Source: Pseudoalteromonas xiamenensis (GTDB lineage: Bacteria > Pseudomonadota > Gammaproteobacteria > Enterobacterales > Alteromonadaceae). From it: a stretch of 64,000 bases of DNA. The position numbers were made by a program, and so were the translations under genes. The stretch lies in NCBI RefSeq assembly GCF_030994125.1, contig NZ_CP099917.1, forward strand, positions 2,300,001 through 2,364,000. The letters are read 5' to 3'. The notes beneath the pieces were generated by a model. It was not told where the DNA came from, ran no database searches, and was given only the letters and a program-made list of their open reading frames with translations. Positions 10,155 through 32,325 of the stretch are shown here, piece after piece (the stretch's first letter is position 1; each line of letters starts with the position of its first letter).

Positions 10155-11225
10155 ATGCCTGTGATTTTTAAGCGATTCATCGCCATGATAGTGCAGCATG
10201 TCGACAAAGCGAGTTGGCAAATGCTGAGCTTGGTTACATTTGCTCACATGGGGCTGACGTGGATTGCCCTTTATGCCGCGAATGAAACGGCCTTATTGGG
10301 ACTCAACACGTTTGTGTATTACTACATCGTGACGACATCAACGGTCGGCTACGGCGATTTTAGCGCAAGCAGTGAATTGGGTCGTTGGGTTGTGGCGTTA
10401 TGGCAAATACCCTTTGGATTGGCGCTGTTTGGGATTATTTTAGGTAAAGTGGGTCAATTGGCGACATTTTGGATAAGACGAGCGATGACAGGAAATAAAG
10501 ACTTTTCACATATGACCGATCACATCATTATTTTTGGATGGCATTCGGTTCGCACAAAAAAAATGATTGATTACATTCTCGCAGACACGAAGCGAAAGGC
10601 ACGTCGAATTTTGCTCGTCGTGACCGATGAAATGGAACATCCCTTTCTCCATTACCCTGAAGTTGATTTCGCCAAGTTGATGACCTTTACGGATGATTCA
10701 GAATTAACTCGAGTTGCGTTGATGTCGGCCGATAAGGTGATCATAGACGGAAAAGACGATGACCAAACGTTCACAACCGCATTAAAAATTAGCCCGATGG
10801 TTAAACCGACTTGCCACATCAGCGCGCATTTTGAAGACGAGAGCAAAGTCTCGTTATTGCTGATGCATTGTCGTAACGTGGAATGTTCAAGTAGCAAATC
10901 GGCTGAGATTTTGGTGCGGTCAATGCAGGATCCTGGTTCAAGTCGCGTCCAAGAGGAATTATTGTCAACGTTGCATGGTGATACGCAGTTTTGTTTGGAA
11001 GTACCAGAAGGTGTTGCGACGTTCAGTTTTGGTGACGTATTTCAAAAGTTTAAAGCGCAATACAATGCGATTGTGCTAGGGGTCGCCCATGACTTAAGCG
11101 CGAGCGATATGGATTTAAACCCGCCATTGGATTATCGCATTCAAAGTGGCGATATATTGCACTACATCGCGCCAGAGCGGGTCTTAGTGACCGAAGTCGA
11201 TTGGACGAAATTAGCGTCTAATTAA
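10155..11225 (+). CDS. Two-TM potassium channel with cytoplasmic RCK/TrkA-N domain
   Basis: A 356-residue inner-membrane ion channel. Two membrane segments (about 24-42 and 78-100) flank a pore loop with the potassium selectivity filter TVGYGD (residues 63-68). The cytoplasmic part is a Rossmann-type RCK/TrkA-N domain (HIIIFGWHSVRTKKMIDYIL) followed by a TrkA-C-like C-terminus (FQKFKAQYNAIVLGVAH, LDYRIQSGDILHYIA). The filter is intact. The first glycine motif of the nucleotide site reads GWHSVR rather than GxGxxG, so the ligand may differ. It is divergent from cheV and followed by a small membrane protein gene. Confidence 0.92.
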   Translation: MPVIFKRFIAMIVQHVDKASWQMLSLVTFAHMGLTWIALYAANETALLGLNTFVYYYIVTTSTVGYGDFSASSELGRWVVALWQIPFGLALFGIILGKVGQLATFWIRRAMTGNKDFSHMTDHIIIFGWHSVRTKKMIDYILADTKRKARRILLVVTDEMEHPFLHYPEVDFAKLMTFTDDSELTRVALMSADKVIIDGKDDDQTFTTALKISPMVKPTCHISAHFEDESKVSLLLMHCRNVECSSSKSAEILVRSMQDPGSSRVQEELLSTLHGDTQFCLEVPEGVATFSFGDVFQKFKAQYNAIVLGVAHDLSASDMDLNPPLDYRIQSGDILHYIAPERVLVTEVDWTKLASN

Positions 11226-11250
11226 TCAGTGAGTATCAAAGGGGAAGAGC

Positions 11251-11466
11251 ATGTTGGCCGTACTGTTACTTGTCACAACAATATGTGCTTATTTGATCCC
11301 ATTAGGTGTGATTGCCAACAGCAAACGCACCCGCGGCCACGAAAAAAACATTTGGCTTATGGCAACCCTTATTTTTTCATGGGTTGCCCTCCTGCTTTAC
11401 GTCACCGTTGTACCGTCTCATCACAAACAAACGCCAAAGCGTCTGCGCAAGCGGGCTAGCGCGTAA
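11251..11466 (+). CDS. Small two-helix membrane protein of unknown function
   Basis: A 71-residue protein with two predicted membrane helices (about 2-21 and 33-54) and a very basic C-terminal tail (KQTPKRLRKRASA). I do not recognise the family. It is called because GGGGAAGAG lies just upstream of its ATG and because it starts 25 bases after the potassium channel gene in the same direction. Its last 11 bases overlap the end of the opposite EVE-domain gene. Confidence 0.65.
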   Translation: MLAVLLLVTTICAYLIPLGVIANSKRTRGHEKNIWLMATLIFSWVALLLYVTVVPSHHKQTPKRLRKRASA

Positions 11467-11923
11467 CGCCAGACTTAGCCAACAAGTAATGCCATTCTTG
11501 TTCATTGACTGGCATGACCGATAAACGTCCCGCTTTTTTTAATGCCAACTCTTGTATTGCATCGTCGGCTTTAATTGCCTGAAGCGTTACTGGCTTCGGT
11601 AAATGTTGGCGGTATTGTATGGTCAGGCCAATCCAGCGCGGTTTTTCCGGGTCTGACTTGGGATCAAAATACGGGCTTTCAGGGTTAAATTGGTGCGGAT
11701 CCGTCTTTGCACCTTCGGTGATTTGTGCAATGCCAACAATCGCAGGGACTTTGCAGCTAGAATGATAAATGAAGACTAAGTCGCCAACCTGTGCTTGGTC
11801 TCGCAAAAAATTTCGCGCTTGATAATTGCGGATCCCTTCCCAGAACGTGCTTTGCTGCGGTGCCTTGGCTAGTGTATCAATTGAAAAGGTATCTGGTTCG
11901 GTTTTAAACAACCAATAGGCCAT
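11456..11923 (-). CDS. EVE-domain protein
   Basis: A 155-residue protein that is a single EVE domain, a PUA-like fold. The opening MAYWLFKTEPDTFSID, then FWEGIRNYQARNFLRDQAQVGDLVFIYHSSCK, are typical of the family. EVE domains form an aromatic cage that can read modified bases in DNA or RNA, and some are parts of anti-phage systems. Stand-alone copies such as this are widespread housekeeping genes of unclear role, and no nuclease or helicase partner lies beside it, so I do not infer defence. Confidence 0.9.
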   Translation of the reverse strand: MAYWLFKTEPDTFSIDTLAKAPQQSTFWEGIRNYQARNFLRDQAQVGDLVFIYHSSCKVPAIVGIAQITEGAKTDPHQFNPESPYFDPKSDPEKPRWIGLTIQYRQHLPKPVTLQAIKADDAIQELALKKAGRLSVMPVNEQEWHYLLAKSGVTR

Positions 11924-12028
11924 GATAATTCCTTAATAATAAGAGTGTTTACTCAATTACAGGATTGAGTTTTCGTGTATTATTATTGTTTATAAGGCAA
12001 AAATCCAAACATCTCTAGGGAGTAAGGC

Positions 12029-12886
12029 ATGAGCCAAGTATTACAAGAACTGCTAAACCTACTGACGTTAGAAGAAATCGAACAAGGGATCTACCGTGGT
12101 CAAAGCCAAGACTTGGGATTTCGCCAAGTGTTTGGTGGTCAAGTGATGGGGCAAGCTCTATCGGCCGCGAAGCAAACGTTGCCAGAAGGGCGCTTTGTAA
12201 ACTCATTGCATTCATACTTTCTTCGACCCGGTGATGCGTCCAAACCAATCGTTTATGATGTCGAAACGATCCGCGATGGTAAAAGCTTTTCAACGCGTCG
12301 TATCAGCGCCATTCAGTATGGTAAGCCAATTTTTTATATGACGGCATCGTTTCAAGGCGATGAGGAGGGGGTGTCGCATCAGTCGGCAATGCCTGATGTG
12401 CCTGCTCCGGAAGAATTAAAATCGTCGCTAGAGTTCTATCAAGAACACGCCGCGCAGATCCCTGAAAGTATTCGCAGTAAGTTTACCCGTGAAATGCCGA
12501 TTGAAATGCGTCCAGTCAATTTCCAGAATCCATTTTTACCACAGGTGACGGAGCCGGTTCGGCATGTTTGGTTTAAGGCAAATGGCTCGATGCCAGACGA
12601 TCGTCGCATTCATAACTATTTATTAGCGTACGCGTCGGACTTTGAATTTTTACCGACGGCGCTGCAACCGCATGGTCTGTCGTTTATGCATCCAACGATG
12701 CAAGTCGCGACCATTGACCACGCGATGTGGTTTCATCGTCCATTTAGAATGGACGAATGGATGCTTTACAGCGTTGATAGCCCAAGTGCAAGCAACGGAC
12801 GAGGCTTAGTGCGTGGACAATTCTTTAATCGCAGTGGTGAGCTGGTGGCCTCGACCATTCAAGAAGGTGTTATGCGTCAGCGCTAG
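12029..12886 (+). CDS. tesB: Acyl-CoA thioesterase II, TesB
   Basis: A 285-residue double-hotdog thioesterase that hydrolyses medium and long acyl-CoAs to free fatty acids and CoA. The family pattern is clear: [54 protein letters not shown], and in the second half [11 protein letters not shown] and [31 protein letters not shown] precedes the ATG. It converges with plsB, and the two share a bidirectional terminator. Confidence 0.95.
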
Positions 12887-12950
12887 TTGCAGCCGGTGGG
12901 CAGATAGATCCTGTCTTTGAGCATGCTATTAAGTTGCGAACATAGAATTA

Positions 12951-12978
12951 AGAAGCGAGGCTGAGCCTCGCTTCTTTT
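12951..12978. terminator. Bidirectional terminator between tesB and plsB
   Basis: The hairpin AGAAGCGAGGC - TGA - GCCTCGCTTCT is followed by TTTT on the plus strand and preceded by AATTA, so it can act in both directions. Its right edge touches the plsB stop codon. Confidence 0.85.
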
Positions 12979-15418
12979 ATTCTGAGTGACTGGTGACGGT
13001 ATCCGCGATGGATTGCCAGACCCTAGCTGGAAGCAAAGTCACGAGCGTTTGTTGTAGTGCATCCAGTTGTTGATTACCGCACAAGCGATTCTGAGCGCCT
13101 TGTTCTACATAGCCTTGCTCTTTCATTGAGTTTAGAAGTGAAGCCAACACTTTTGCATCGAAAAATTCAGGGCTCTTAATACCATGTAAGCGGCCCAGTC
13201 TTCCCGCTAGCGTTTGGTAATCTTGTTCTAGCTGTGCTTTATCATAATCTGGTGTTCCAAGGACTAGCGCGGATAGAATTGCATAGCGCTCGAGGGTGAG
13301 TTGGATTGACTTGCCAAGTATTTCCAATTGGCTTCGAGTTTGGCTGTCCGTGTTCATCGTCCAAAGCTCGTCATTTCGCGTAACAAGACCTTGTGCTTTG
13401 AAACTTGTTAATACCTCTTGAATGTAGTCTTCACGAAGTGGCGTCAAGAACCATTCTTTTGCAAAAAGTGGATACAGTTTGTGTAAGTGTGTTTTGCAGG
13501 CTTCGACGGTCACCGCATCTTTATACAGTAGGAATTGTGCAATCACCGCAGGTACTGCGAACAGATGTAGAATGTTGTTTTTGTAATAGTTAACGAGCGT
13601 TTGCTCACGTTCGCTGATACTAATGATGTCGCCAAAGCTGTCTTGATGCACCTCGAACTTATTTAATGTAAGCGCGTGAGCGAGCAGACTTTCTGCGTTT
13701 TCATCCGGCATGGTCACATCTAAATGATATGGCGCGGTGTGTTGCAAAGACAAGTAGAACTCTAGTTGGGAGAGTAGTTTACTTTTGCTAAGTGCAAATT
13801 GCTCGGCACTTAACAAGATGAGCGAAATCAAATTCACGGCATTGAGTGCCGCCGTGCTATTGATGTTTGTCATGATCTTGTCGGCAAGTTCGGCCACTTG
13901 CGGGGCTAACCAGCTTGGCTTCTGAGCTTCGGTTGGATGGATAGCTTCACGCCAGTTGGGTTGTTGCTCAGTTAAAAACTGATTGATGTTAATTGGCTCA
14001 CCAAAATTCAAATAGCCACGGCCATAATTCTTTAGATTCTTAATGGCTTTAAATACGCCAAGGATGGACTCGTTTTTCTTATGATCGCCCGCGAGTTCTT
14101 TAAGATAGGTATTGATTTCCATTACATGCTCATAGCCGATGTACACGGGTACGATAGAAATAGGGCGGTCAATACCACGCAACATAGCCTGCAACGACAT
14201 GGCTAACATACCGGTTTTAGGTGGTAACAAGCGACCAGTTCGGCTCCGACCACCTTCGGTATAAAACTTGACGGAATACCCTTTTATAAAGAGTTGGCTC
14301 AGATATTCATTGAAGACCGCTGCGTACAGCTTATTCCCCGCAAATGATCGGCGAATAAAGAAAGCCCCCGAACGACGGAAGATCCCGCCGGCAGGAAAGA
14401 AGTTAAGGTTTACCCCTGCTGCGATATGTGGAGGTACTAGCCCTTGGTGATAAATCACGTAGGTCAGTAAAAGATAGTCCATGTGACTGCGATGACACGG
14501 AACGAAGAGAATTTCATGACCTTTGTCTGCAAGTGCGTGGACTCGGTCAACGTTTTTCACGTCGATACCATTGTACAGTTTTGTCCAAAGCCAGGTCAGA
14601 ATGCGTTCTGCGACGCGAACCATTGCGTCAGAATAATTTGCCGCGATCTCTTCAAGCATTTTTAATGCTTCACGACGAGCTTCTTCCTGGCTTAAGCCTT
14701 TACTTTTAGCTTCTTGAGCAATCGCATGTTTGATACTAGGGGAAGCTAAAAGACTGCTGAACAGTTGTTCGCGTGAAGGCAATTTAGGCCCTGTTGCGGC
14801 CAATTTTTGACGACGAAAATGTACGCGTGCTACACGCAGTAATTTGTGCGGTAGCTCATCGACGTCCGCTTTATCAGTGATAAGTTGCGACAAATCAATG
14901 GGTTTACTCAGACGTACGAAATTATTTCGCCCAGAAAAGAGCACCACAAAACATTTTCTAAACCAACTTGGTGTCAGTGAGCTGCTGAGAAGTGTGCCTA
15001 GACCAGGCTTTTCTTTACCAGGATCGCGTCCCCACAAAATTGTTGCAGGAATGATTTGGATTTTCGTCCCTGGGTTTGCTCTGAGTGCTTGAAAGATAGC
15101 TTGGCCTTGTTTGAGTGCCACACTTTCTTTGGGGGTATTTGAAAACAGTGGAGTCGGGTTTTGGATACCAACAAATCTTGGCAATACCGCACTGCCAACC
15201 TTTTCTGAACCGCTTGCTTTTGGTAGACCGAGTTTCTTACACACAGAGTCTAATGCAGCGATGTCCGAGTGCGCATTCAATCTTGCGACATAAAAGGTAG
15301 GCAAATTTGGATCAAGCCCAAATTGTTCGAGAGGGTTCTCGGGCAACAGTTTTGTTTTTACGAATAACGCGTTGCCGAACTTGGCTAACGCCAACATAAC
15401 ACCAGAAAATATGCGCAT
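12977..15418 (-). CDS. plsB: Glycerol-3-phosphate 1-O-acyltransferase PlsB
   Basis: An 813-residue peripheral inner-membrane enzyme that acylates sn-glycerol 3-phosphate at position 1, the first step of phospholipid synthesis. The catalytic HX4D motif is present (HRSHMD, His309-Asp314). Further acyltransferase blocks follow: IFRRSGAFFIRRSF, FYTEGGRSRTGRLLPPKTG and ISIVPVYIGYE. The length is close to the E. coli enzyme. In Alteromonadales relatives I recall plsB lying next to and divergent from lexA. Here about 17 kb separates them. Confidence 0.97.
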   Translation of the reverse strand: MRIFSGVMLALAKFGNALFVKTKLLPENPLEQFGLDPNLPTFYVARLNAHSDIAALDSVCKKLGLPKASGSEKVGSAVLPRFVGIQNPTPLFSNTPKESVALKQGQAIFQALRANPGTKIQIIPATILWGRDPGKEKPGLGTLLSSSLTPSWFRKCFVVLFSGRNNFVRLSKPIDLSQLITDKADVDELPHKLLRVARVHFRRQKLAATGPKLPSREQLFSSLLASPSIKHAIAQEAKSKGLSQEEARREALKMLEEIAANYSDAMVRVAERILTWLWTKLYNGIDVKNVDRVHALADKGHEILFVPCHRSHMDYLLLTYVIYHQGLVPPHIAAGVNLNFFPAGGIFRRSGAFFIRRSFAGNKLYAAVFNEYLSQLFIKGYSVKFYTEGGRSRTGRLLPPKTGMLAMSLQAMLRGIDRPISIVPVYIGYEHVMEINTYLKELAGDHKKNESILGVFKAIKNLKNYGRGYLNFGEPININQFLTEQQPNWREAIHPTEAQKPSWLAPQVAELADKIMTNINSTAALNAVNLISLILLSAEQFALSKSKLLSQLEFYLSLQHTAPYHLDVTMPDENAESLLAHALTLNKFEVHQDSFGDIISISEREQTLVNYYKNNILHLFAVPAVIAQFLLYKDAVTVEACKTHLHKLYPLFAKEWFLTPLREDYIQEVLTSFKAQGLVTRNDELWTMNTDSQTRSQLEILGKSIQLTLERYAILSALVLGTPDYDKAQLEQDYQTLAGRLGRLHGIKSPEFFDAKVLASLLNSMKEQGYVEQGAQNRLCGNQQLDALQQTLVTLLPARVWQSIADTVTSHSE

Positions 15419-20890: not shown

Positions 20891-23800
20891 ATGTTCTCGA
20901 TTGGAGTAATAAGTCTCGTTGCCATCGCTTACCTTGGCGTACTCTTCGCGGTTGCGTGGGTGGCTGATAAGAGTCCGAAACCTCGTGCGCGTGCAAGTGT
21001 TTATGCGTTGTCATTGGGAGTGTATTGTACTTCATGGGCGTTTTTTGGTACGACCGCACAAGCCGCGAATAACGGCTGGTGGTTGGCTCCGACCTATTTA
21101 GGCACAATTCTGCTGTTCATCTTCGGATGGCAAATATATTTAAGAATCGCAACCGTTTGTCGTCAACAAAAGCTGACTTCCATGGCTGATTTTATCGCGA
21201 CGCGTTATGGGCAATCATCGAGCCTTTCTGGTTTGATTTCATTTATATCTGTGATTGCGGTGGTGCCTTACATTGCGCTACAGCTCAACGCGACAAACAC
21301 CAGTATTTCGTTACTCACGGGCAAACCATCGACGGCTACCATCGCATTTTGGCAAGACGGTACCTTTTATATTACGTTGCTGTTGGCGCTTTTTGCTGTG
21401 TTGTTTGGTACTCGGCGTTTGCGCCCCAGTGAACATAATCCTGGGTTGATGACCGCAATTGCGTTTGAATCTTTAGTGAAGTTGTTCGCCTTTCTCGCGG
21501 TTGGTGTATTTGTTTGTTTTGGCATTTTTGACACTCCTTGGCAATTGCTTGAGCAGGCTCATCGAGATGGTGTTACGGCGCAAATTGAAACAACGAGAAG
21601 CCCCAACTACGTATATTGGGTGCATGTGTTGCTGGGGTTACTAGCCACATTGTGTTTACCTCGGCAATTCCACACCGCGTTTATTGAGCCCAGTTCGGAG
21701 AAACAACTCGTCGCTGCGCGGTGGTTGTTTCCAGTGTATCTCGTGCTGATTACGCTATTTACCTTACCTATTGCGTATGCAGGGCTGTTACTTTTCAAAT
21801 CAGGTAATGTCGGCTACGACACCTTTGTACTTGCGTTACCCATAGCAGCAAATGCGCCCGTGATGACCATGTTGGCGTTTCTTGGTGGCTTTTCAGCAGC
21901 CACGAGTATGGTGATTGTATCGACCATCGTTTTAGCCATCATGATCACCAATGATTTTATCAATCAATATTTACTTCGCCGTGCTCAGGTAGGTGCAAAA
22001 ACGCGCGGATTAACAAAGCAGAGGCTTATTTACGCTCGACGCGGCGTGATCGTCGCCATTTTACTCTTAAGTTATTTGAGTCATCGTATCTTTGCTGATG
22101 GCAATACGCTGGCGAATATGGGCTTGATGTCATTTGCATTAGTCGCACAGTTTGCACCTGCCATGATCATTGGTTTATGGTGGCGCAAGGCTTCTTGCCT
22201 TGGTGCACAGCTGGGTATCATCAGTGGTTCTGTGATTTGGTTTTACACGCTCTTATTGCCCAATCTTATCACCGGTTTGTCTGGCCCCGAAAATTGGTTG
22301 CATGCAGGACCGTGGGGAATTGCTTGGCTTGCTCCAAAAGATTTATTTGGTATTGGTCTTGATGCCATTAGTCAGGCTGTGCTGCTTTCGTTATTCGTCA
22401 ATACACTGGTGTATCTCGTTGTGCCTTGGTTTAGCCAGGCGCGATTGGCAGAACGTCTGCAAAGTAATAAATTTATATTGAGTGAACCAGAGCCAAAAGC
22501 ATTATTGACACCCCTTACATATCAAGACTGTGCAGACTTGCTACTGCGTTTTGGTGAGCCAGACTCAACTGCGCAACTGATTGACGAAGAATTTCCGAAA
22601 GAGCGTGGAAAATGGAAAGAAACAGCACCTCGTCACATCGAAGATTTGGTTGAGCGTGAAATGTCAGCCCTCATCGGTGGGCCTTCTGCTCGGCTTATAT
22701 TACAAGCCAGTAAAGATGAAAAAGCGCAATCTATTGAACACGTTGCGGAGTTTGTGGATGAAGCCAGTCAAGTATTACGCTTTAATCGCGACTTGCTGCA
22801 AGCCACCATTGAGAACGTAGAACAGGGTATCAGCGTAGTCGATAGTGAGTTGAAGCTGGTCGCATGGAACCAACGCTACAGTGAAATGTTTTCTTACCCC
22901 GAAGGGAGTTTGTACATCGGTCGTCCTGTTGAAGAACTGATCCGCCTCAACGCGCAGCGGCAGTTGTTTGAATTCAATAATCTATATCAAGAGGTTGAAA
23001 AACGACTCGCGTATTTGAAACAAGGAAGTGCCTACAAGTATCGTCGTCAGCACAATGATGGTCGCGTGTTTGAAATGCAGGGGAATCCGTTACCCGGAGG
23101 TGGCTTTGTGACGACCTATACGGACATTTCTGATTTTGTACGCCAGCAACGAGCGCTGGAGCAAGTGAATACGGACCTTGAGGAAAAGGTTCAGGCCCGT
23201 ACCGTTGAACTCACGAATGCCAATCAACAACTCGAAACCGCAAAACGGCAGGCTGAACTTGCAACTGAGAGTAAAACTCGCTTTTTTGCTGCGGCCAGCC
23301 ATGACTTACTGCAGCCTTTCAATGCTGCTAGTTTGTTTTGTGCTTTAATGAGTGAGCGTGCACAAGGCTCCGAGCTTCAAGGTTTGTCAGAGAACATCAA
23401 AGATGCGTTGGCCAGTGCAGAGGATTTACTGTCAAGCATTTTAGAATTGACGAAATTGGAGGCTGGCGCGTTCAAGACCTCGATAGCCCCTTTTAACTTG
23501 GCGTCTTTATTAACGCCGTTGTGTAATGAATATCGAGCCCTTGCAAAAGCTAAAGGGTTGGCGTTTGACGTCAGCCCGTGTCCGGTCTCGCTTACTACAG
23601 ATAAAGCACTTTTGAAACGCGTGTTAAGTAACTTACTTAGTAACGCCATACGCTACACCAAACAAGGCGAAGTCCGCTTGCGTTTAGAGCGAGATGGACA
23701 ACGGTTGTCCATCATGGTTGAAGACACCGGTATTGGTATCGCACAGCAAGATCAAACACTCATCTTTCAAGAGTTCAAGCAACTTGGCGATCGTTCTCAC

Positions 23801-24343
23801 GGGCAAGGGTTAGGATTAGGCTTAGCGATCAGTAAGCGGATCTGTGATTTGCTGGGCATTCATATTTCCATGGGCTCAGAAGTAGGGAAAGGCACACAGT
23901 TTACCTTGACCCTGCCGTGTGAAGACGCCTTAAGCACAACATCTGGACAAGAACTCATTGAGGCTACGGGAGATAGCCAGCTACAAGGTCTTTCTGTGTG
24001 GCTACTGGATAATGACGAACATGCTCTAGAGGCGTTGAAACAATTACTCACGAACTGGGGGTGTGAGATCCAGTGCGCGAGAAACCAACAGGAGTTGGCA
24101 GTACTAGTGGCGACGAGCAAGGCTGATTTGCTTATTGCGGATTATCAACTTGACAGTGGCGTTACAGGGTTGGACGTGGTTGCTGAGTTATCACTGCAAG
24201 CAATGCCGATTATACTGAATACAGCGAATCATGATGAGTTAATCCGAGAGAGAATCACCGACAGTGGCTACCCGCTTTTATATAAGCCGCTCAAAGCGCC
24301 CGCCCTTAAGCGACTTTTAAAGCGTATTGCAACTGCGTTGTAG
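20891..24343 (+). CDS. crbS: CrbS/CbrA-type hybrid histidine kinase with sodium-solute-symporter domain
   Basis: An 1150-residue membrane sensor. Residues about 1-500 form a sodium/solute-symporter-like domain with many membrane helices. A PAS domain follows (about 630-745; VEQGISVVDSELKLVAWNQRY), then a coiled linker, a HisKA domain with phospho-acceptor His804 (AAASHDLLQPFNA), an ATPase domain with LLSNAIRYT, VEDTGIGI and GLGLGLAISKR, and a C-terminal receiver with Asp1084 (LLIADYQLD). This order matches CrbS/MxtR and CbrA, kinases that control acetate or carbon use. The convergent LuxR-type regulator at 24395-25042 supports CrbS over CbrA. The ATG used has no clear ribosome binding site, so the start may be slightly different. 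Confidence 0.85.
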   Translation: MFSIGVISLVAIAYLGVLFAVAWVADKSPKPRARASVYALSLGVYCTSWAFFGTTAQAANNGWWLAPTYLGTILLFIFGWQIYLRIATVCRQQKLTSMADFIATRYGQSSSLSGLISFISVIAVVPYIALQLNATNTSISLLTGKPSTATIAFWQDGTFYITLLLALFAVLFGTRRLRPSEHNPGLMTAIAFESLVKLFAFLAVGVFVCFGIFDTPWQLLEQAHRDGVTAQIETTRSPNYVYWVHVLLGLLATLCLPRQFHTAFIEPSSEKQLVAARWLFPVYLVLITLFTLPIAYAGLLLFKSGNVGYDTFVLALPIAANAPVMTMLAFLGGFSAATSMVIVSTIVLAIMITNDFINQYLLRRAQVGAKTRGLTKQRLIYARRGVIVAILLLSYLSHRIFADGNTLANMGLMSFALVAQFAPAMIIGLWWRKASCLGAQLGIISGSVIWFYTLLLPNLITGLSGPENWLHAGPWGIAWLAPKDLFGIGLDAISQAVLLSLFVNTLVYLVVPWFSQARLAERLQSNKFILSEPEPKALLTPLTYQDCADLLLRFGEPDSTAQLIDEEFPKERGKWKETAPRHIEDLVEREMSALIGGPSARLILQASKDEKAQSIEHVAEFVDEASQVLRFNRDLLQATIENVEQGISVVDSELKLVAWNQRYSEMFSYPEGSLYIGRPVEELIRLNAQRQLFEFNNLYQEVEKRLAYLKQGSAYKYRRQHNDGRVFEMQGNPLPGGGFVTTYTDISDFVRQQRALEQVNTDLEEKVQARTVELTNANQQLETAKRQAELATESKTRFFAAASHDLLQPFNAASLFCALMSERAQGSELQGLSENIKDALASAEDLLSSILELTKLEAGAFKTSIAPFNLASLLTPLCNEYRALAKAKGLAFDVSPCPVSLTTDKALLKRVLSNLLSNAIRYTKQGEVRLRLERDGQRLSIMVEDTGIGIAQQDQTLIFQEFKQLGDRSHGQGLGLGLAISKRICDLLGIHISMGSEVGKGTQFTLTLPCEDALSTTSGQELIEATGDSQLQGLSVWLLDNDEHALEALKQLLTNWGCEIQCARNQQELAVLVATSKADLLIADYQLDSGVTGLDVVAELSLQAMPIILNTANHDELIRERITDSGYPLLYKPLKAPALKRLLKRIATAL

Positions 24344-24394: not shown

Positions 24395-25042
24395 CTACTC
24401 GGCTCCAATCGTTGATAATTGGTTGAACAAAATCCCCGCTTGTGTGCGATTGTAAACATTTAACTTTTTCAAGATGGCAGACACATGCTGTTTGATGGTG
24501 GTTTCTTGAATGTTCATCGCATAAGCAATTTGTTTGTTGAGTTTGCCGTCCGCGATCATGGCGAGCACACGATATTGTTGTGGCGTGAGCTTTTCCAAGT
24601 TGCGAGCAAATTGCGCTTGTTCAGAATCAGTCTGATCCATAAGTTCAGTTTGGTCTGGTAACCAATTTTCCCCTTCAATGACTTTGGTAATTGCTTCAGC
24701 TATCAGTTCTAAAGAGGCGGATTTAGGAATATACGCACTCGCACCCAGTGCCATGGCTTGTTCTATAATTTGCGGGCTTTCATTCGCAGAAACCATGACG
24801 ACCAAGATATCAGGATACTGATTGCGAAGGTTCGCAAGGCCCTGCAACCCTTTTGCTCCCGGTATGGTTAAATCTAAAAAGACGAGTTCCGTTTCGGGAT
24901 GTGAGACCAATAACATCATGAGCTCGTCAACCGTACTGGCTTCTTTTATTTGTTCATTGCTCATCACTTGTGCAGCTGCTTGTTGCAATGCACTGCGAAA
25001 AAGCGGGTGATCATCGGCAATTATGGCTTGCACGTGTGTCAT
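24395..25042 (-). CDS. crbR: LuxR/NarL-family response regulator, CrbR-like
   Basis: A 215-residue regulator: receiver domain (about 4-120) with the acidic pair in IIADDHP and phospho-acceptor Asp57 (VFLDLTIPG), and a C-terminal LuxR helix-turn-helix (LTPQQYRVLAMIADGKLNKQIAYAMNIQETTIKQHVSAIL is split here only for description). The family includes CrbR/ErdR, which activates acetyl-CoA synthetase genes in Vibrio and Pseudomonas. It converges with the CrbS-like kinase gene. The frame opens five codons earlier with TTG, but I choose the ATG at 25042, preceded by GGAGAGATTGAGG. The next gene upstream is the TonB receptor of the 3-hydroxybutyrate locus. Confidence 0.82.
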   Translation of the reverse strand: MTHVQAIIADDHPLFRSALQQAAAQVMSNEQIKEASTVDELMMLLVSHPETELVFLDLTIPGAKGLQGLANLRNQYPDILVVMVSANESPQIIEQAMALGASAYIPKSASLELIAEAITKVIEGENWLPDQTELMDQTDSEQAQFARNLEKLTPQQYRVLAMIADGKLNKQIAYAMNIQETTIKQHVSAILKKLNVYNRTQAGILFNQLSTIGAE

Positions 25043-25140
25043 CCTCAATCTCTCCAACTAGCTCAGTTATATGGTATTTTGAGAAAATAGACAAGGCAAC
25101 AAGGTGGCTGGGGATCCGCTTGCTGCCTCGTCAAGTGGTG

Positions 25141-27417
25141 TTAGAAACGATAACCAACCGTCAAGGAAATAGTGCGAGGGTCACCGTAATAACCAATGAG
25201 TGTATTGTCACCGCCAAGACCCGGGGTGTATTTGCTCGTATCGTTTGGTGCCGTTGGGTCTGGTGTTACAAATTGGTAGCCACCAATCATATATTCTTCG
25301 TCAGTCAGGTTTTTCGCATGCAGACCGACACGCCAGTTACCGTCTTGGCTATACCAATTCACGTTGAAGTTTAAGAGTCCATACCCGTCTTGAGTGAGCA
25401 AGCTGTCTTCTTCAAATAGAACGTAATCACCGCGATAATAATAATTAGCGTTGAGAACAAAATCTCCAAACTCGGAGTAGATTTTGTAATTTGCCCCGAC
25501 ATTAAACGTAACATCAGGGGTATTCGAAATACTAAAACGCTCGGACTTATCAAAGGTTAAACCGGTTGCTTGGTCGGTATCCAATACTTCGTCGAACGAA
25601 CTATCAATGTAGCCGATGGCGGCATCAAAGGAGAGTGACTCAGTGGCGATGTAAGTGAGCTCTAACTCTGCGCCCTTACCCGAAGATTTACCAATGTTGC
25701 CGAGTCGTTGGTTCAAATCAGCTGACGTTGCACCCGGCAATACAGAGATGTATTGGCGATCTTTGTGGTCAAGCGCAAAGAGTGTCAGATTGGCCCGTAG
25801 CGTCTTGTTCCATTCGCTTTTCATACCTAACTCGAAGGAATCAACAATTTCAGGATTTGCTGCGGGTTCCGTCGTGCTAGCTCGAGGATTATAAGTACCA
25901 GATTTAAACCCTTGTGAGTAGCTTGCAAAGAACATGATGTCATCAGAGTACTGGTATTCAATACCCACTCGAGGCGTAAAACGTGACCAGTCTTTGTTGT
26001 CGTCAAGCACATTTGGCACCAGTTCACCTTCAGGGCGAACATAACCCGGTATCCAATTGGATTCAGGGTAAACCGTGGCAAACACTAATCCATTATTAAC
26101 CGTCGCTTCTTTGCTATCTCTGGTATATCGAGCGCCTAGGGTGAGTGACCACTGTTCGTTCAAATCCACATTACCTTGTGCATAAAACGCTTTGCTGGTG
26201 GAATTGCTGCAACCGCTGACTTCACGGGTAAGGCCTGGCGCACCTAAGCTTTGACCTAAAACTTCAAGAATAGCTTGGAATTGCCCGCAGGATTCGGCAT
26301 CGTAGTAGTATAAGCCAGAAACGACTTTATAGTTTTCCCCACGATGGGTCACTTGCAGTTCATGGGTTAATTGGTTGTCGTCATAAATGGCGGGCACATC
26401 GAAGATTTTGAGAGGTGTGTTATCAAAGTCAATGTTGGTGGGTGAATAGCTATCGCGTTTTGCGACGGTATATTTGAAGGATGTATGATCATCCATATCC
26501 CATCGGCTGGTTAAGCTGTAGCCTTCCAATTCCACTTTATTCCAAGTGGGCATGCTGGTGTAACTATCAAAAACACTGTCCGGAATAGGGGCGTTTGTCA
26601 GTAAACTTGGCAATAATCGGTAGCCACCTTTCGCATTCGATTTGTCGTCTGTTTTATCCCAAGCTAAACGGAAAAAAAGTTTATCAGTCGGATGCATTTC
26701 AAGCGTTAAACGCATGGCGCTGACATCTTTGTTGTAATTTTCTTTGTCTTGGCCTGCCTGTGACATTTGTAGAAATTCACCGAAGCCATCGCGCGTCAGA
26801 TTTGCGTAACCGTAGCCGAGGTAAATCTTATCGGAGATGGGAAGCTGCCCAGTTATTTTCAAGTCTCGTTGATTGTAACTCCCCACCGTGCCATCAATGT
26901 TTAAGGTTGCGTCACCAGTCATTTCTTTTGTGACGTATTTTATTGCGCCGCCAATGGTGTTTTTACCATACAGCGTACCTTGTGGACCACGTAGTACTTC
27001 TATTTGCTGTACATCTAATAAATCGAGTACCGCACCTTGTGGTCTGGCGATGTACACATCATCAACGTATATACCAACACCCGGTTCATATCCCCACAGC
27101 GGGTCTTGCTGACCTACGCCTCGAATGAATGCCGTGATCGTCGAGTTGGTCCCCCGGCTAGCCTGTAGCGTTGTATTGGGTGAAAACTGCTGTACTTCAG
27201 TCATGACTGAGATGCCGTTCTCCATCAGCGCAGATTCGCCAATGCTGGTAACGGCGACGGGTACTTCCTGTAAGTTTTCCACGGTTTTACGAGCCGTGAC
27301 TTCAATGCGTTCAAGTTCTGCCTTTTTTGCTCCGTCTTCAGCGTAGACCACCATACTAGAAAGTGCGGTGCTGATGGCGAGAGCGAGATATGAAACACGA
27401 GTTGGCTTTCTGTTCAT
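25141..27417 (-). CDS. TonB-dependent outer membrane receptor
   Basis: A 758-residue receptor with a signal peptide (cleavage near residue 26, VVYA-EDG). A plug domain spans about 36-170 (VENLQEVPVAVTSIGES, FIRGVGQQDP, VLRGPQGTLYGKNTIGGAI), and a beta barrel ends in the outer-membrane signature TISLTVGYRF with a terminal Phe. It is of the general type found in Alteromonadales for small organic substrates and not recognisably a known siderophore or B12 receptor. It is divergent from the permease-hydrolase-dehydrogenase-CoA-transferase operon and shares with it a 249-base control region, so I infer that it imports that pathway's substrate, possibly an ester or oligomer too large for porins. Confidence 0.88.
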   Translation of the reverse strand: MNRKPTRVSYLALAISTALSSMVVYAEDGAKKAELERIEVTARKTVENLQEVPVAVTSIGESALMENGISVMTEVQQFSPNTTLQASRGTNSTITAFIRGVGQQDPLWGYEPGVGIYVDDVYIARPQGAVLDLLDVQQIEVLRGPQGTLYGKNTIGGAIKYVTKEMTGDATLNIDGTVGSYNQRDLKITGQLPISDKIYLGYGYANLTRDGFGEFLQMSQAGQDKENYNKDVSAMRLTLEMHPTDKLFFRLAWDKTDDKSNAKGGYRLLPSLLTNAPIPDSVFDSYTSMPTWNKVELEGYSLTSRWDMDDHTSFKYTVAKRDSYSPTNIDFDNTPLKIFDVPAIYDDNQLTHELQVTHRGENYKVVSGLYYYDAESCGQFQAILEVLGQSLGAPGLTREVSGCSNSTSKAFYAQGNVDLNEQWSLTLGARYTRDSKEATVNNGLVFATVYPESNWIPGYVRPEGELVPNVLDDNKDWSRFTPRVGIEYQYSDDIMFFASYSQGFKSGTYNPRASTTEPAANPEIVDSFELGMKSEWNKTLRANLTLFALDHKDRQYISVLPGATSADLNQRLGNIGKSSGKGAELELTYIATESLSFDAAIGYIDSSFDEVLDTDQATGLTFDKSERFSISNTPDVTFNVGANYKIYSEFGDFVLNANYYYRGDYVLFEEDSLLTQDGYGLLNFNVNWYSQDGNWRVGLHAKNLTDEEYMIGGYQFVTPDPTAPNDTSKYTPGLGGDNTLIGYYGDPRTISLTVGYRF

Positions 27418-27500
27418 CCTGTTGCCCCTGTTATTGTCATTTTGGGTTGTTCGAGTTTTTAAACTAATCCGACTCTAGGAGAATGTGTGTAAAAGTGAAT

Positions 27501-27516
27501 TAGTACCTTAGTACTA
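27501..27516. promoter_or_regulatory. Dyad operator site 1 in the divergent control region
   Basis: TAGTAC-CTTA-GTACTA is a perfect 6-4-6 dyad; it can also be read as two heptamers with a two-base gap, the arrangement used by NarL/LuxR-type regulators. A 13-base core (ACCTTAGTACTAT) recurs exactly 56 bases downstream. It lies between the TonB receptor and the permease operon. The cognate regulator is inferred, with the adjacent CrbR-like protein a reasonable candidate. Confidence 0.55.
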
Positions 27517-27556
27517 TCGGTGCTGTAGCCCTGCCACGACGGGGGGTGGGCTTGGT

Positions 27557-27572
27557 TATAACCTTAGTACTA
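27557..27572. promoter_or_regulatory. Dyad operator site 2 in the divergent control region
   Basis: TATAAC-CTTA-GTACTA has the same right arm and centre as site 1 but a degenerate left arm. The shared 13-mer starts at 27505 and 27561. The 56-base spacing is not far from five helical turns, so two bound dimers could lie on roughly the same face. Confidence 0.5.
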
Positions 27573-27666
27573 TGTATTTTCTGTGTAACTCGTCTCAGAC
27601 TGATTATATTCCAATGCACTTTGAGGTTGCTCTTGGTGCATGACTATAACAATAAAGGAATTGGAT

Positions 27667-28968
27667 ATGCTCAGTATGGTAGGTCTTTTAGGTGGTCTTA
27701 TCCTCCTGATAATCATGACATTACGAGGTGTGAATCTTTTCTTGGCTGCACCCTTGTGTGCACTTATCGTCGCATTGTCGAGTAATATGGAGGTGTTTCC
27801 GCTTAGCGAGCAGGTGAATTTCTTAAGCACCTATATGTCTGGTTTTGCCGGTTTCATTAGTGCTTGGTTTTTCATGTTTTTACTCGGTTCACTGTTTGGT
27901 AAATTTATGGAAGATAGTGGAGCCGCCGACAGTGTGGCGCGATTCATTGTTGCTAAATTGGGAATGAAGCACGCCGTGCTCGCTGTGGTCATCGCCTGTG
28001 CTGTGCTTACCTATGGTGGCGTAAGTGTTTTTATTGTGGCGTTTTCCGTATATCCCATGGCCCTCGGCTTATTTAAAGATGCCGACTTACCACGTCGCTT
28101 CATCCCTGCAACGTTAGCGTTTGGTTCAGTGACGTTTACGATGACGTCTGCGGGCAGCCCCGAAATTCAAAATTGGATCCCAATCAAATATTTAGGTACG
28201 TCACCCTACGCTGCGTGGGAAGTGAGTCTTGTCGTCGCTATTTTTATGGCACTCAGCGGTTATTGGTGGCTCATGCGTATGATTAACAAAGCAAAAGCAA
28301 ATGGAGAGCGTTTTGACACTCGTCCTGATGATCCTGCCATTGCTTTACGCGACTATCCCCATCCCATAACGGGAGTCATCCCGCTTATTGTTGTGTTACT
28401 GCTGTCCTTTACGCTGCATGAAGCTTTGCAACAAAGTGCGCTTATTGTCGCGTTACTCGGTGGCGTTCTGAGTATTGTGATTATCAACTTTAAACGTTTT
28501 CGCTCAATAACCAATGCGGTCAATTTAGGGACGACAGGCGCGCTTGTCGCGATTGGCAATACGGCAGCCGTGGTGGGGTTTGGTGCGGTTGCTAAGAATA
28601 CGGACGCATTTAATGCCGCTGTTGATGTAATGACTGCTATGCCGGGCAATGAATTACTCGGCGCGGCCATGGCAGTGAGTGTTATTGCGGGGTTAACCGG
28701 TTCGGCGTCCGGCGGGCAAGCGATAGCGTTACCGCTCGTTGCACCGCATTACCTGGATGCAGGTGTTAATCCAGAACAATTACATCGTATTGTGGCCATT
28801 AGTTCGGGGGCACTCGATACGTTGCCACACAATGGTTATGTGGTTACGACGATTCGCGCCATTTGTAAAGAAACGCACCAACGCGCCTATTGGTCAATGG
28901 CGGCACTTACCGCGCTGATCCCGTTGATTGGGGTTGCATTGGCACTAGGCTTGTTTATTTGGTTTTAA
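27667..28968 (+). CDS. GntP-family permease, probable 3-hydroxybutyrate importer
   Basis: A 433-residue inner-membrane transporter with about 12 hydrophobic segments. It shows features of the GntP/gluconate permease superfamily (GSLFGKFMEDSGAADSVARFI, SAGSPEIQNWIP, GLTGSASGGQAIALPLVAP). Members found beside 3-hydroxybutyrate dehydrogenase and CoA-transferase genes are annotated as short-chain hydroxyacid carriers, which is what the context suggests here. The frame opens at 27640, but the ATG at 27667 has AAAGGA at a good distance upstream and is preferred. First gene of a five-gene operon. Confidence 0.85.
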   Translation: MLSMVGLLGGLILLIIMTLRGVNLFLAAPLCALIVALSSNMEVFPLSEQVNFLSTYMSGFAGFISAWFFMFLLGSLFGKFMEDSGAADSVARFIVAKLGMKHAVLAVVIACAVLTYGGVSVFIVAFSVYPMALGLFKDADLPRRFIPATLAFGSVTFTMTSAGSPEIQNWIPIKYLGTSPYAAWEVSLVVAIFMALSGYWWLMRMINKAKANGERFDTRPDDPAIALRDYPHPITGVIPLIVVLLLSFTLHEALQQSALIVALLGGVLSIVIINFKRFRSITNAVNLGTTGALVAIGNTAAVVGFGAVAKNTDAFNAAVDVMTAMPGNELLGAAMAVSVIAGLTGSASGGQAIALPLVAPHYLDAGVNPEQLHRIVAISSGALDTLPHNGYVVTTIRAICKETHQRAYWSMAALTALIPLIGVALALGLFIWF

Positions 28969-28980
28969 AGAGGAAGAACG

Positions 28981-30153
28981 ATGAAAAGGCAATTATTCAG
29001 TGTATTTTGGCTTGTTATTCTGAGCTTCACGGCACACGCCCAAACTTTGCTGGTTGAAAAACAACGATTTGAAACGAAGGCCTTTACTACCGAATCTGGC
29101 GTTACTTTACCAGCGGTGGTGATAGGGTATGAAAGCTACGGTACGCTTAATGAGAAAAAGGATAACGCCATCCTCATCACTCACTTTTTCTCAGGAACGT
29201 CGCATGCGGCAGGTAAATATTCGGAAAGTGACCCCTTGCCTGGTTATTGGGATGCGATCATTGGCCCAGGTAAAGCGATTGATACCAATAAGTTTTTTGT
29301 TATTAGTAGTGATACCTTGGTGAACGCCAATGTGTACGACCCCAATGTGATCACCACAGGCCCTGCCTCTCTAAATCCGAAAACAGGCAAAGCGTATGGA
29401 TTAGACTTTCCAGTGGTGACAATTGGTGATTTTGTGGAAGTTCAAAAACGCCTTTTGGATAGCCTTGGCATTGACAAGCTGTATGCCGTTGCAGGTGCCT
29501 CCATGGGGTCTTTTCAAGCGTTGGAGTGGGCGGTCCGTTACCCCAATAAAGTGGAAAGATTGCTCCATGTTATTGGTGCGGCAACGATGGATGCATGGAC
29601 CGTGGCTGCACTGGAAAAATGGGCTTTACCCATTCGCTTAGATCCTAACTGGAACAATGGGGACTATTACGAAGGCAAAAAGCCGATCGCTGGACTCACG
29701 GCGACCCTGCTGAATATTACGCAAGATGCTATGCACCCCGTTATTTATAACGCAAGTTTTAAAGATTTTGAGGTATTAGATGAGCCGGCCATGAAGGACA
29801 TTCGTGTTCTTCCAAAAATTAACCAAATCTTGGCTCAGCGTGCGGCGGTCAGAGCGTCATTGCAAGATGCAAATCATGTGTTGTATCTCATCCGCGCTTC
29901 ACAGTTATTTTCTGCAGGAATGAACCAAAACCTAGAAGGCGCGCTTGCTCGTATTCAAGCGAAGGTCTTGCTCATACCATCCTCAGGTGACTTATTGCTT
30001 CGCCCTGAAGGCGTAAGGTCGCTCTATGACACGCTTAAACAGATGAATAAATCGGTGTCTATCAGCGAAATAAATGGAGGGTGGGGCCATTTAGATGGGT
30101 TGTTCTCCATCAGCAGTAAGCAAGCTGAAATTGCGGCTTTTTTAGCGGAGTGA
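28981..30153 (+). CDS. Secreted alpha/beta hydrolase of the MetX (homoserine acetyltransferase) superfamily
   Basis: A 390-residue protein with a clear signal peptide (MKRQLFSVFWLVILSFTAHA, cleaved before QTLL), so it acts in the periplasm. The body resembles MetX-type acyltransferases: the oxyanion region ITHFFSGTSHAAGK, nucleophile Ser174 in GASMGSFQALEW, Asp337 in PSSGDLLLRPEG and His370 in GWGHLDGL. A periplasmic enzyme would not have acetyl-CoA, so it probably works as an esterase or hydrolase. Its place between the permease and 3-hydroxybutyrate dehydrogenase suggests it splits esters or oligomers of 3-hydroxybutyrate brought in by the TonB receptor. The substrate is inference. True homoserine acetyltransferase is cytoplasmic and lacks this leader. 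Confidence 0.8.
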   Translation: MKRQLFSVFWLVILSFTAHAQTLLVEKQRFETKAFTTESGVTLPAVVIGYESYGTLNEKKDNAILITHFFSGTSHAAGKYSESDPLPGYWDAIIGPGKAIDTNKFFVISSDTLVNANVYDPNVITTGPASLNPKTGKAYGLDFPVVTIGDFVEVQKRLLDSLGIDKLYAVAGASMGSFQALEWAVRYPNKVERLLHVIGAATMDAWTVAALEKWALPIRLDPNWNNGDYYEGKKPIAGLTATLLNITQDAMHPVIYNASFKDFEVLDEPAMKDIRVLPKINQILAQRAAVRASLQDANHVLYLIRASQLFSAGMNQNLEGALARIQAKVLLIPSSGDLLLRPEGVRSLYDTLKQMNKSVSISEINGGWGHLDGLFSISSKQAEIAAFLAE

Positions 30154-30157
30154 TGAG

Positions 30158-30913
30158 ATGAAGAAGGTATTGATTACCGGCGGAGCCAGTGGCATCGGCC
30201 AGCACCTTGCGCATCGACTCGCGGCATTAGATTTTGATGTTGTGGTGAGTGATGTTAATGAAGTCCAAGCGATAGAAACAGCTCAAGAGATTGTTGCGAA
30301 AGGGTTTAAGGCACGAGGCATTGGCTTAAACATGTTGGACAGCGCACGTTTTGTGCATCTTACCCAAACGCTCGGTCCTATTGATGTACTGATTAATAAT
30401 GCGGGTATCCAGCACGTTGAAGCGCTTGAACATTATCCGCTTGAAAAATGGGAAATGTTGCAGGCCGTTATGTTGACGGGGCCTGCGATGTTAAGCAAGG
30501 CGTTATTGCCACACATGCGCAAACAGAACTTCGGCCGCATTATTAACATCGGCTCTATTCACGCGCTGGTGGCGTCAAAATACAAATCGGCTTATGTCGC
30601 GGCAAAACATGGTTTGGTTGGGTTATCAAAAGTCATGGCGCTTGAGACTGCTGAGTTCGACATAACGATAAACACCATTTGCCCCGCCTATGTAAAAACG
30701 CCGTTGGTGGAAAAACAAATTGCGGCCCAAGCCAAAGAACATGGCATGAGTGAACAAGAGGTGGTTGACCGTATCATGCTGGCGCCAATGCCTAAAAAGG
30801 CGTTTATCGATGTGGAAGAGATTTTCCATAGCGTGCAATTTTTGGTCGCCCCTCTGGCGAGAAACATCACAGGGCAAACCATTGTTATTGACGGTGGTTG
30901 GACAGTGCAATAG
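30158..30913 (+). CDS. bdhA: 3-hydroxybutyrate dehydrogenase
   Basis: A 251-residue short-chain dehydrogenase that oxidises (R)-3-hydroxybutyrate to acetoacetate with NAD. It has the cofactor loop [19 protein letters not shown], and the catalytic set Ser133 (INIGSIHAL), Tyr146 and Lys150 (SAYVAAKHG). The IQHV and [14 protein letters not shown] blocks are the ones that separate this enzyme from generic SDRs. It starts four bases after the hydrolase and is followed by the CoA-transferase genes that use its product. Confidence 0.9.
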
Positions 30914-30921
30914 GAGTACGT

Positions 30922-31620
30922 ATGGCGGGTTTTGATAAAGTGGTTGATTCCTACGAAGCGGCGTTAGCTGGGCTTGAAGATGGCATGACCGTGATAGCGG
31001 GTGGATTTGGCTTATGCGGAATTCCGGAGGGGCTCATTGCCGAAATAAAGCGACAAGGTAAAAACGCACTGACCGTTGTCTCGAATAACTGTGGTGTAGA
31101 TGGTTTTGGTTTGGGTGTGTTATTGGAAGACAAGCAAATCAAGAAGATGATTGCCTCGTATGTGGGGGAAAATGCGTTATTTGAACAGCAGTTGTTGAAT
31201 GGTGATTTAGACGTGGAGTTGACACCACAAGGTACGCTTGCTGAGAAAATGCGTGCAGGCGGCGCTGGGATCCCGGCGTTTTTTACGGCGACAGGCGTTG
31301 GCACAATGGTCGCAGAAGGCAAACCTCACAAAATGTTTCAAGGTCGTGAATACGTGATGGAAGAAAGCATCACAGGCGATTTTGCGATTGTTAAAGCGTG
31401 GAAAGCCGACCGTTTTGGCAATTGTGTTTACCGCCACACCGCGATGAATTTCAATCCAATGGCCGCGACAGCTGGAAAAATAACCGTTGTGGAAGTCGAA
31501 GAGTTAGTTGAACCTGGAGACATAGCGCCAAGTGAAATTCACACGCCAGGAATTTACGTTGATCGCGTGATCCTAGGACATTTCGAAAAACGCATCGAAA
31601 AGCGCATGGTGAGGGGGTGA
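30922..31620 (+). CDS. scoA: 3-oxoacid CoA-transferase, subunit A
   Basis: A 232-residue alpha subunit of succinyl-CoA:3-ketoacid CoA-transferase, which activates acetoacetate to acetoacetyl-CoA. The pattern [18 protein letters not shown], then [13 protein letters not shown] and [14 protein letters not shown], is typical. A longer frame opens at 30898 inside the dehydrogenase gene. I choose the ATG at 30922, which has TAGGAG upstream and matches family starts. The next gene starts one base after the stop. Confidence 0.92.
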
Positions 31621-31621
31621 C

Positions 31622-32278
31622 ATGGGATTAACAAGAGAACAAATGGCCATGCGTGTGGCGAAAGAATTGCAAGATGGCTACTACGTTAATTTAGGTATCG
31701 GGATCCCAACGTTGGTAGCGAACTACGTACCTCCTGATACAGCCGTGATGTTGCAATCTGAAAATGGACTTTTGGGAATGGGTCCATACCCGCTGGATGA
31801 AGAACTCGACGCGGATCTCATTAATGCAGGCAAAGAAACTGTGACGACGGTGCCAGGTGCGGCAATTTTTAGTTCTGCAGAAAGTTTTGCGATGATCCGT
31901 GGCGGGCATGTGGACTTAACCGTACTTGGTGCATTTGAAGTTGATCAGCACGGTAATATCGCGAGTTGGATGATCCCCAACACGTTAGTGAAAGGCATGG
32001 GTGGTGCCATGGATTTGGTCGCCGGCGCAAAAAACATCATCTGTACAATGACGCATGCCAACAAAGCAGGAGAATCCAAGGTACTTGAGCGCTGTTCACT
32101 TCCGTTAACTGGCGCTGGTTGTATAAACAAAGTGCTGACTGACTTGGCGTTGCTGGAAATAAAGAATGGCGCGTTTCATTTGCTCGAACGAGCACCGGGC
32201 GTGAGTGTCGAGGAAATTGTCCGTAAAACGGCAGGCGCACTCGTGGTTGATGGAGACATTCCCGAGATGACTTTTTAG
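31622..32278 (+). CDS. scoB: 3-oxoacid CoA-transferase, subunit B
   Basis: A 218-residue beta subunit with the catalytic glutamate Glu47 in the motif SENGLLGMGP, preceded by YVNLGIGIPTLVANYVP. Together with subunit A it moves CoA from succinyl-CoA to acetoacetate. Thiolase, needed for the next step to acetyl-CoA, is not in this operon and must be encoded elsewhere. Last gene before a clear terminator. Confidence 0.93.
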   Translation: MGLTREQMAMRVAKELQDGYYVNLGIGIPTLVANYVPPDTAVMLQSENGLLGMGPYPLDEELDADLINAGKETVTTVPGAAIFSSAESFAMIRGGHVDLTVLGAFEVDQHGNIASWMIPNTLVKGMGGAMDLVAGAKNIICTMTHANKAGESKVLERCSLPLTGAGCINKVLTDLALLEIKNGAFHLLERAPGVSVEEIVRKTAGALVVDGDIPEMTF

Positions 32279-32297: not shown

Positions 32298-32325
32298 AAG
32301 CAGGGTAAAGCCTGCTTTTTTATTT
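32298..32325 (+). terminator. Terminator of the 3-hydroxybutyrate operon
   Basis: The hairpin AAGCAGG - GTAAAG - CCTGCTT is followed by a T-run, 20 bases after the CoA-transferase stop. It insulates lexA from this operon. Confidence 0.88.

Follow-up and report, generated by a model that had tools for sequence, protein, structure and literature searches.

Polysaccharide utilization loci (PULs) of the starch utilization system (SUS) type combine the active import of oligomers across the outer membrane, their cleavage in the periplasm, the import of the monomers across the inner membrane, and a local regulator. In Pseudomonas, the operon for (R)-3-hydroxybutyrate (3HB) comprises a GntP-type permease, bdhA, a CoA-transferase and HbcR. 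Here, we analyzed a 64,000-nt window of Pseudoalteromonas xiamenensis (NZ_CP099917.1; "the window" refers to this whole stretch), in which the gene of a TonB-dependent outer-membrane receptor (TBDR) is divergent from a tight operon coding for a GntP-type permease, an exported E22-family esterase, a D-3-hydroxybutyrate dehydrogenase (BDH) and the two 3-oxoacid CoA-transferase subunits, ScoA and ScoB. Based on its sequence, this block probably serves the TonB-dependent utilization of (R)-3HB oligomers, which arise when the bacterial storage polyester poly-3-hydroxybutyrate (PHB) is broken down, or of short (R)-3HB esters. Like the Pseudomonas operon, it holds a permease, a BDH and a CoA-transferase for the monomer; it adds the exported esterase and the TonB receptor, and its regulator is CrbR-like instead of a sigma-54 activator such as HbcR, which responds to (R)-3HB according to the available part of PMC10482368. 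The logic is shared with SUS-type PULs, but the proposed substrate is ester-linked, and no SusD-like partner was found among the eight window proteins scanned with Pfam; the locus would work like a PUL, but we do not file it as a SUS-type one.

The closest described enzyme is the crystallized esterase E22 (5jkf, 5jkj; NCBIfam NF005262), which has the same family, fold, catalytic triad and GHL motif as the window enzyme. The name of NF005262 carries no physiological role, and a conserved gene context is what the present analysis supplies. The extracellular type 2 depolymerases of short-chain-length polyhydroxyalkanoates (scl-PHA; 2d80/2d81 type) belong to another family than E22. In the text available of a 2025 review on PHA degradation (PMC11893044), PHB is described as being hydrolyzed in the periplasm by the periplasmic PHB depolymerase of Rhodospirillum rubrum; this location is that proposed for E22, but the enzyme is titled as structurally similar to the extracellular PHB depolymerases and not as MetX-like, and neither "TonB" nor "outer membrane" appears in that text. 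For Alcanivorax on polyesters, PMC7187450 lists, with regard to the uptake of monomers, the substrate-binding proteins of inner transporters. The CrbS/CrbR (MxtR/ErdR) system drives acs and actP in Pseudomonas via the ACTU motif, as given in the accessible sections of PMC5715377. As far as the available parts of the papers on this acetate regulon go (PMC5715377, PMC8402216 and PMC9927547), it appears to share with our locus the types of kinase and regulator and the ACTU-frame sites; the word "hydroxybutyrate" is absent from the three main texts. No such locus, and no E22 study, was found in the openly licensed literature, most subscription journals being outside this scope.

Among 60 relatives, own genome counted in, E22 was present in 18 (E-value of 1e-100 or better). 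The receptor (1e-100) accompanied it in 18 of the 18 E22 genomes and was present in 1 of the 42 E22-less ones, while the corresponding figures for GntP (1e-60) were 18/18 and 10/42. The order crbR-TBDR-GntP-E22-BDH-ScoA was kept in all 15 same-genus E22 loci, so the arrangement is not due to chance; ScoB followed in 14 of them, and the exception, L039, reaches a contig end. At the level of the class, E22 is rare (3 of 369 genomes, own one included). In a scan of titled genomes, 490 E22 relatives were confirmed; the best 80 of these, with close kin over-represented, were retained and inspected with flanks of 9 kb around E22. In these 80 loci, crbR adjoined in 74, and TBDR was present in 75, GntP in 77, BDH in 38 (39 were counted and one, at 23% identity, was removed), ScoA and ScoB in 25 each, and a type 2 PHA depolymerase in four. 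The crbS gene was within the flanks in 43 loci; in the nine loci that were extended, it lay some kb beyond them. The commonest arrangement was crbR-TBDR-GntP-E22 alone (37 loci), followed by the same genes with BDH-ScoA-ScoB behind them (24), with BDH upstream (9) and with depolymerase plus BDH (3), the rest being single cases (4, of which contig ends truncate two) and E22 genes without context (3). The entire Pseudoalteromonas-type block was also found in Shewanella carassii (L127), whose E22 joins the Pseudoalteromonas group in the tree; since the E22 groups there and the whole block is shared, this copy was likely acquired by horizontal transfer.

As judged from its sequence, the window enzyme is an E22-family MetX-like esterase and not a MetX. 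It scored 591 bits against NF005262, "E22 family MetX-like putative esterase" (cut-off 450), and shares 56% identity with E22, on which it superposes with a root-mean-square deviation of 1.2 over 367 residues and with the triads aligned. All MetX models remained below their cut-offs (TIGR01392, 239.5 of 500; NF001209, 263 of 331; NF047916, 228 of 560; NF047917, 190.9 of 475). The GHL motif is present in the window enzyme, in 80/80 relatives and in 5jkf, and GHD follows the catalytic His in 24/24 MetX proteins compared; in the tree, the E22 proteins form a clade separate from MetX. The N-terminus of the window enzyme (MKRQLFSVFWLVILSFTAHAQ...) resembles a signal peptide, as judged by eye. By a simple and crude hydropathy cut of 1.6, a hydrophobic N-terminal stretch was present in 79 of the 80 relatives, the exception, L188, reaching 1.54, against 4 of the 24 MetX proteins; the first residue of the E22 crystal chain is number 25 in that chain's numbering, as though a leader had been omitted. 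At a threshold of 1e-3, Pfam recognized only Abhydrolase_1 and Hydrolase_4 in the window enzyme and not PF10605, which we take to be the 3HB-oligomer hydrolase family, and no match was found to the scl-PHA depolymerase families NF050058, NF050059 and PF10503. The sequence-only reading had described an intact triad, which was confirmed (Table 1), and had proposed to place the enzyme in a tree, where it falls outside the MetX group. Its idea that a MetX-fold protein moved to the periplasm would be a new use of that fold is not supported: MetX-fold esterases are already in the PDB (E22, 5jkf/5jkj; MekB; the Corynebacterium glutamicum acetylester hydrolase), some of them named acetyl esterases. 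What is new is the conserved gene context of E22, not the esterase use of the fold. One genome (G049) carries two E22 copies (L041/L042), one leader-bearing and beside the receptor, the other without leader and beside GntP, crbR, crbS and BDH; these are possibly periplasmic and cytoplasmic versions.

A connection with the polymer is provided by six genomes, four of the best 80 and two more, in which an extracellular-type scl-PHA depolymerase lies inside the locus (type 2 model NF050059, cut-off 280 bits). In L106, from another genus of the same family, the operon order is GntP-E22-depolymerase-BDH, with overlapping gene ends from E22 to BDH, and the depolymerase (403.7 bits) matches the PHB depolymerase structures 2d80 and 2d81 at 8.6e-52 and 2.2e-51, respectively. 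In L043, from another family, a 377.5-bit depolymerase is located between receptor and E22. The gene lies directly 3′ of E22 in Aliiglaciecola (L168, 355.9 bits), Neptunicella (L170), Paraglaciecola (L182) and Thalassotalea (L166), and a genome search reproduced those of L166, L170 and L182 at the same coordinates, with 371, 388 and 399 bits. On a tree of 33, the presence of an in-locus depolymerase changed at least three times. Genome-wide, NF050059 matched in 23 of 42 E22 genomes (from a hand-picked 43 of the best 80, L175 being absent) and in 13 of the 369 genomes of the class sample (12 over the cut-off), both being raw counts uncorrected for kinship; within the class sample, it matched in two of the three E22 genomes (one below the cut-off) and in 11/366 others. 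A first assumption, that the congeners lack depolymerases altogether, proved wrong. PF10503 exceeded its cut-off in 7/60 relatives (4/18 with and 3/42 without E22), and the proteins of the three scanned (G012 and G025, with E22, and G034, without) exceed the type 1 scl-PHA depolymerase cut-off of 150 bits, with 180, 175 and 236 bits. Some Pseudoalteromonas are thus probably able, on this sequence evidence, to cut the polymer. Two of the three type 1 genes belong to E22 genomes, in which they lie on C2, the second large contig. Additionally, a depolymerase gene of G049 (L108, 6702-8941) is flanked by two short genes, phasin-like by eye and without NCBIfam match, and in L043 a gene between depolymerase and E22 (7625-8566) codes for a protein that has a leader and weakly matches M61 peptidases (28 bits, cut-off 22).

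In the proposed pathway, the receptor would import 3HB oligomers or esters across the outer membrane, E22 would hydrolyze their ester bonds in the periplasm by means of its Ser-Asp-His triad, and the GntP permease would take up the monomer, which BDH would convert to acetoacetate and ScoAB to acetoacetyl-CoA; the operon would be induced by CrbS/CrbR through the palindromes described below. Depolymerase-bearing relatives would make the oligomers themselves, and the window strain would live on those from others. The sequence-only reading had drawn import, periplasmic cleavage, GntP uptake and acetoacetyl-CoA formation for a block at 25141..32278. Its gene set and coordinates were borne out, the open reading frames (ORFs) being where it placed them and the families being recognized by Pfam and NCBIfam, but it omitted the conserved neighbors crbS and crbR; the conservation of gene order in other genomes, which it had named as a check, was found. 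The pathway is backed by this order, by the co-occurrence of receptor and E22 and by the in-locus depolymerases, but strict 3HB specificity is not established. To this support are added the family, fold and clade of E22 and the TAGTAC motif found in every TBDR-GntP gap compared. We favor, by a small margin over even odds, the wider proposal of a CrbR-controlled "polyester utilization locus" of marine Gammaproteobacteria, with a TBDR for PHB oligomers, a periplasmic MetX-fold hydrolase as the role of E22, and a permease, carried by lineages that either bear depolymerases or scavenge.

The monomer genes of the window fit this pathway by family. BDH scored 324.8 bits against TIGR01963 (cut-off 307), its 13 top PDB matches are all named hydroxybutyrate dehydrogenases, and its alignment with the D-3HB dehydrogenase 1wmb conserves GIQH, SxH, K, YxxxK and KQ, presumably the substrate-site residues of the latter. 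ScoA reached 239.6 bits over a cut-off of 128.5 (TIGR02429), and ScoB 317.9 over 243.6 (TIGR02428). Fifteen E22 genomes chosen as apparently BDH-less (L173 left out) were searched for BDH at 1e-70; L139 does have a flank BDH, leaving 14 informative. Ten of the 14 hold BDH elsewhere, always beside crbS. In nine of the ten, E22 and BDH share a contig and are separated by 11-17 kb, the extended order being BDH-crbS-...-crbR-TBDR-GntP-E22, and in the tenth (G433) BDH and crbS are together on a separate contig. In L214-L222 (Rheinheimera, Alishewanella and kin), approximately 3-9 kb of other genes part BDH-crbS from crbR-TBDR-GntP-E22.

Several observations weigh against an interpretation centered on PHB. 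Neither BDH nor CoA-transferase is in the fetched flank of 42 of the 80 loci, and E22 stands without the whole context in L161, L167 and L186. The solved receptors nearest to the TBDR are mostly siderophore receptors, though these dominate the PDB. The association of depolymerase and E22 is weak among the 60 relatives (type 2, 2/18 versus 0/42), and the set searched genome-wide, uncorrected for kinship, included few genomes of Pseudoalteromonas, a genus that lowers the rate (four, all without the gene). The window genome itself has no PF10503 or NF050059 match, the two models searched there, PF10605, PhaC, NF050058 and other families remaining unsearched; it more likely scavenges oligomers released by others. 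Finally, BDH was not found at the above threshold in 4/4 Idiomarinaceae genomes searched, and in the Idiomarinaceae loci (L131, L144, L173, L180, L183 and kin; the ORF cluster comprises 19 loci) an acyl-CoA ligase lies between GntP and E22, in the place of the BDH and CoA-transferase of other loci. One such ligase scored 705.6 bits against the 3-(methylthio)propionyl-CoA ligase model, below its cut-off of 822, and may activate the acid directly. This combination of a ligase and no BDH, which fits a broader set of hydroxy acids or another activation route, is the strongest finding against strict 3HB specificity.

These Idiomarinaceae loci also speak for the first alternative, namely that the locus handles esters of short 3-hydroxy or other acyl acids, such as acylated natural products or mixed polyesters, that E22 cleaves short-acyl esters in general in the periplasm, and that 3HB is just one of the products. 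The receptor lends it further support. It falls into two discrete clades, with 44-48% or 59-87% identity to that of the window (75 loci), which is of type A; both clades occur within Rheinheimera and within Pseudidiomarina, and the clade switched at least six times on an E22 tree of 35 rows, which suggests changing ligands or outside pressure. The receptor was perhaps replaced at a stable locus, by a change of ligand or under phage or bacteriocin pressure. The predicted receptor model (mean predicted local distance difference test score of 77.9) gave in Foldseek the TBDR fold only, with no ligand indicated. We nevertheless consider this alternative unlikely, as BDH, CoA-transferase or PHA depolymerase recur at the locus in several lineages, and ten of the 14 searched genomes without a flank BDH have one beside crbS.

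The control region bears on a second alternative. In the window, Pfam recognized a kinase, a receiver and a LuxR-type regulator in the pair next to the receptor; the N-terminal part of the kinase matches PDB 10ed, "histidine kinase", at 8.6e-64. This membrane part of CrbS is, as we take it from the family name, SLC5-like, but Pfam did not find an SLC5 domain in the window kinase. The best NCBIfam model of the regulator is ErdR, at 225 bits, below the cut-off of 390. The TAGTAC motif is present in 76/76 TBDR-GntP gaps (window plus 75 loci), and a longer palindrome in 56 of the 76 and in 0/30 acs upstream regions. The window has two 17-bp ACTU-frame sites, 56 bp apart. The strict ACTU pattern TANNACYNNNGTNNNAT, which fits just two of the six published sites copied, occurs in 24/76 E22 gaps (0.7% of shuffled ones) and in 10/30 acs upstream regions (1.3%), own genome included. 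A looser core, fitting five of the six, occurs in 61/76 E22 gaps (23% shuffled) and is weakly enriched at acs (14/30 versus 27% shuffled). With a position weight matrix built from the E22-locus palindromes, 1/30 acs upstream regions exceeded the 99th percentile of shuffles. From these motif counts, it is plausible that the E22-locus box and the ACTU box are identical, and CrbS/CrbR probably switches the operon on via the palindromes 5′ of GntP.

With crbR adjoining nearly all of the 80 loci, ACTU-frame sites upstream of both the operon and acs, acs and actP under CrbS/CrbR in Pseudomonas, and acetyl esterases among the MetX-fold enzymes, E22 could instead free acetate from acetylated substrates, the locus belonging to acetate metabolism and the 3HB genes being passengers of the regulon. 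We regard this as improbable, as it leaves the co-directional BDH, CoA-transferase and PHA depolymerase and the dedicated outer-membrane receptor unexplained, and 3HB catabolism yields acetyl-CoA too, so that shared regulation is expected for a PHB-oligomer locus as well. That the enzyme is a homoserine O-acyltransferase, or a related one, whose N-terminus was read wrongly was rejected as very improbable indeed, given the MetX scores, the GHL motif, the leader and the separate clade, and acetyl-CoA is, to our knowledge, not expected in the periplasm.

The features of the region are listed in Table 1. The intergenic gaps of the operon are 12, 4, 8 and 1 bases from GntP to ScoB, taking for ScoA the in-frame ATG at 30922, which we prefer to the TTG that begins the listed ORF 30898-31620. 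The closest named proteins are from Pseudoalteromonas. Terminator-like sites are not commoner in the region than expected by chance (nine versus a shuffle mean of 9.5). The permease matches PF02447 with 34.3 bits (cut-off 22.5), and its PDB matches to capsid proteins (E-values of 0.25 and above) were dismissed as chance. GntP alone is a weaker marker: 10/20 E22-less congeners have a paralogue at another place, and in the ten E22-less carriers it is the sole window gene within the 14-15 kb retrieved. The own genome has a second, solitary GntP copy (73%; G000:C1:2102794-2104092, L082), at a spot that looks common to E22-less congeners. In L033 (G022), GntP matches in two stretches (approximately 10967-13700) with some 1.4 kb between them, as though an insertion had split the gene.

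Table 1. Features of the window around the E22 gene, with the type 1 depolymerases of congeners (positions within the locus named).
Feature	Position	Strand	Basis or remarks
crbS-like hybrid sensor kinase	20891..24343	+	long N-terminal membrane part, PAS, HisKA, HATPase, receiver
crbR/erdR-like LuxR-type response regulator	24395..25057	-	NCBIfam, Pfam
TBDR, proposed importer of 3HB oligomers/esters	25141..27417	-	Pfam plug and barrel
CrbR/ACTU-like palindromic site 1, TAGTACCTTAGTACTAT	27501..27517	+	predicted
CrbR/ACTU-like site 2, TATAACCTTAGTACTAT	27557..27573	+	predicted
GntP-type inner-membrane permease, proposed 3-hydroxybutyrate importer	27640..28968	+	PF02447
Exported E22-family MetX-like esterase	28981..30153	+	Ser174/Asp337/His370; GHL at 369-371
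BDH	30158..30913	+	TIGR01963
3-oxoacid CoA-transferase subunit A (ScoA)	30922..31620	+	TIGR02429
3-oxoacid CoA-transferase subunit B (ScoB)	31622..32278	+	TIGR02428
Terminator-like hairpin and T tail, just 3′ of the operon	32298..32317	+	
Type 1 scl-PHA depolymerase, congener	L095 6824-9004		
Type 1 scl-PHA depolymerase, congener	L096 7107-9287		
Type 1 scl-PHA depolymerase, congener	L094 7856-8785		

If the proposed PHB-oligomer pathway is true, the E22 esterase family would gain a role, and TonB-dependent oligomer import would extend from glycans to polyesters. The conserved gene set, carried by many marine bacteria, would provide marker genes to tell PHB degraders from PHB-oligomer scavengers at sea, which is where PHB-type bioplastics are meant to degrade, and the question of who eats the oligomers would become testable by means of knock-outs and metatranscriptomes.

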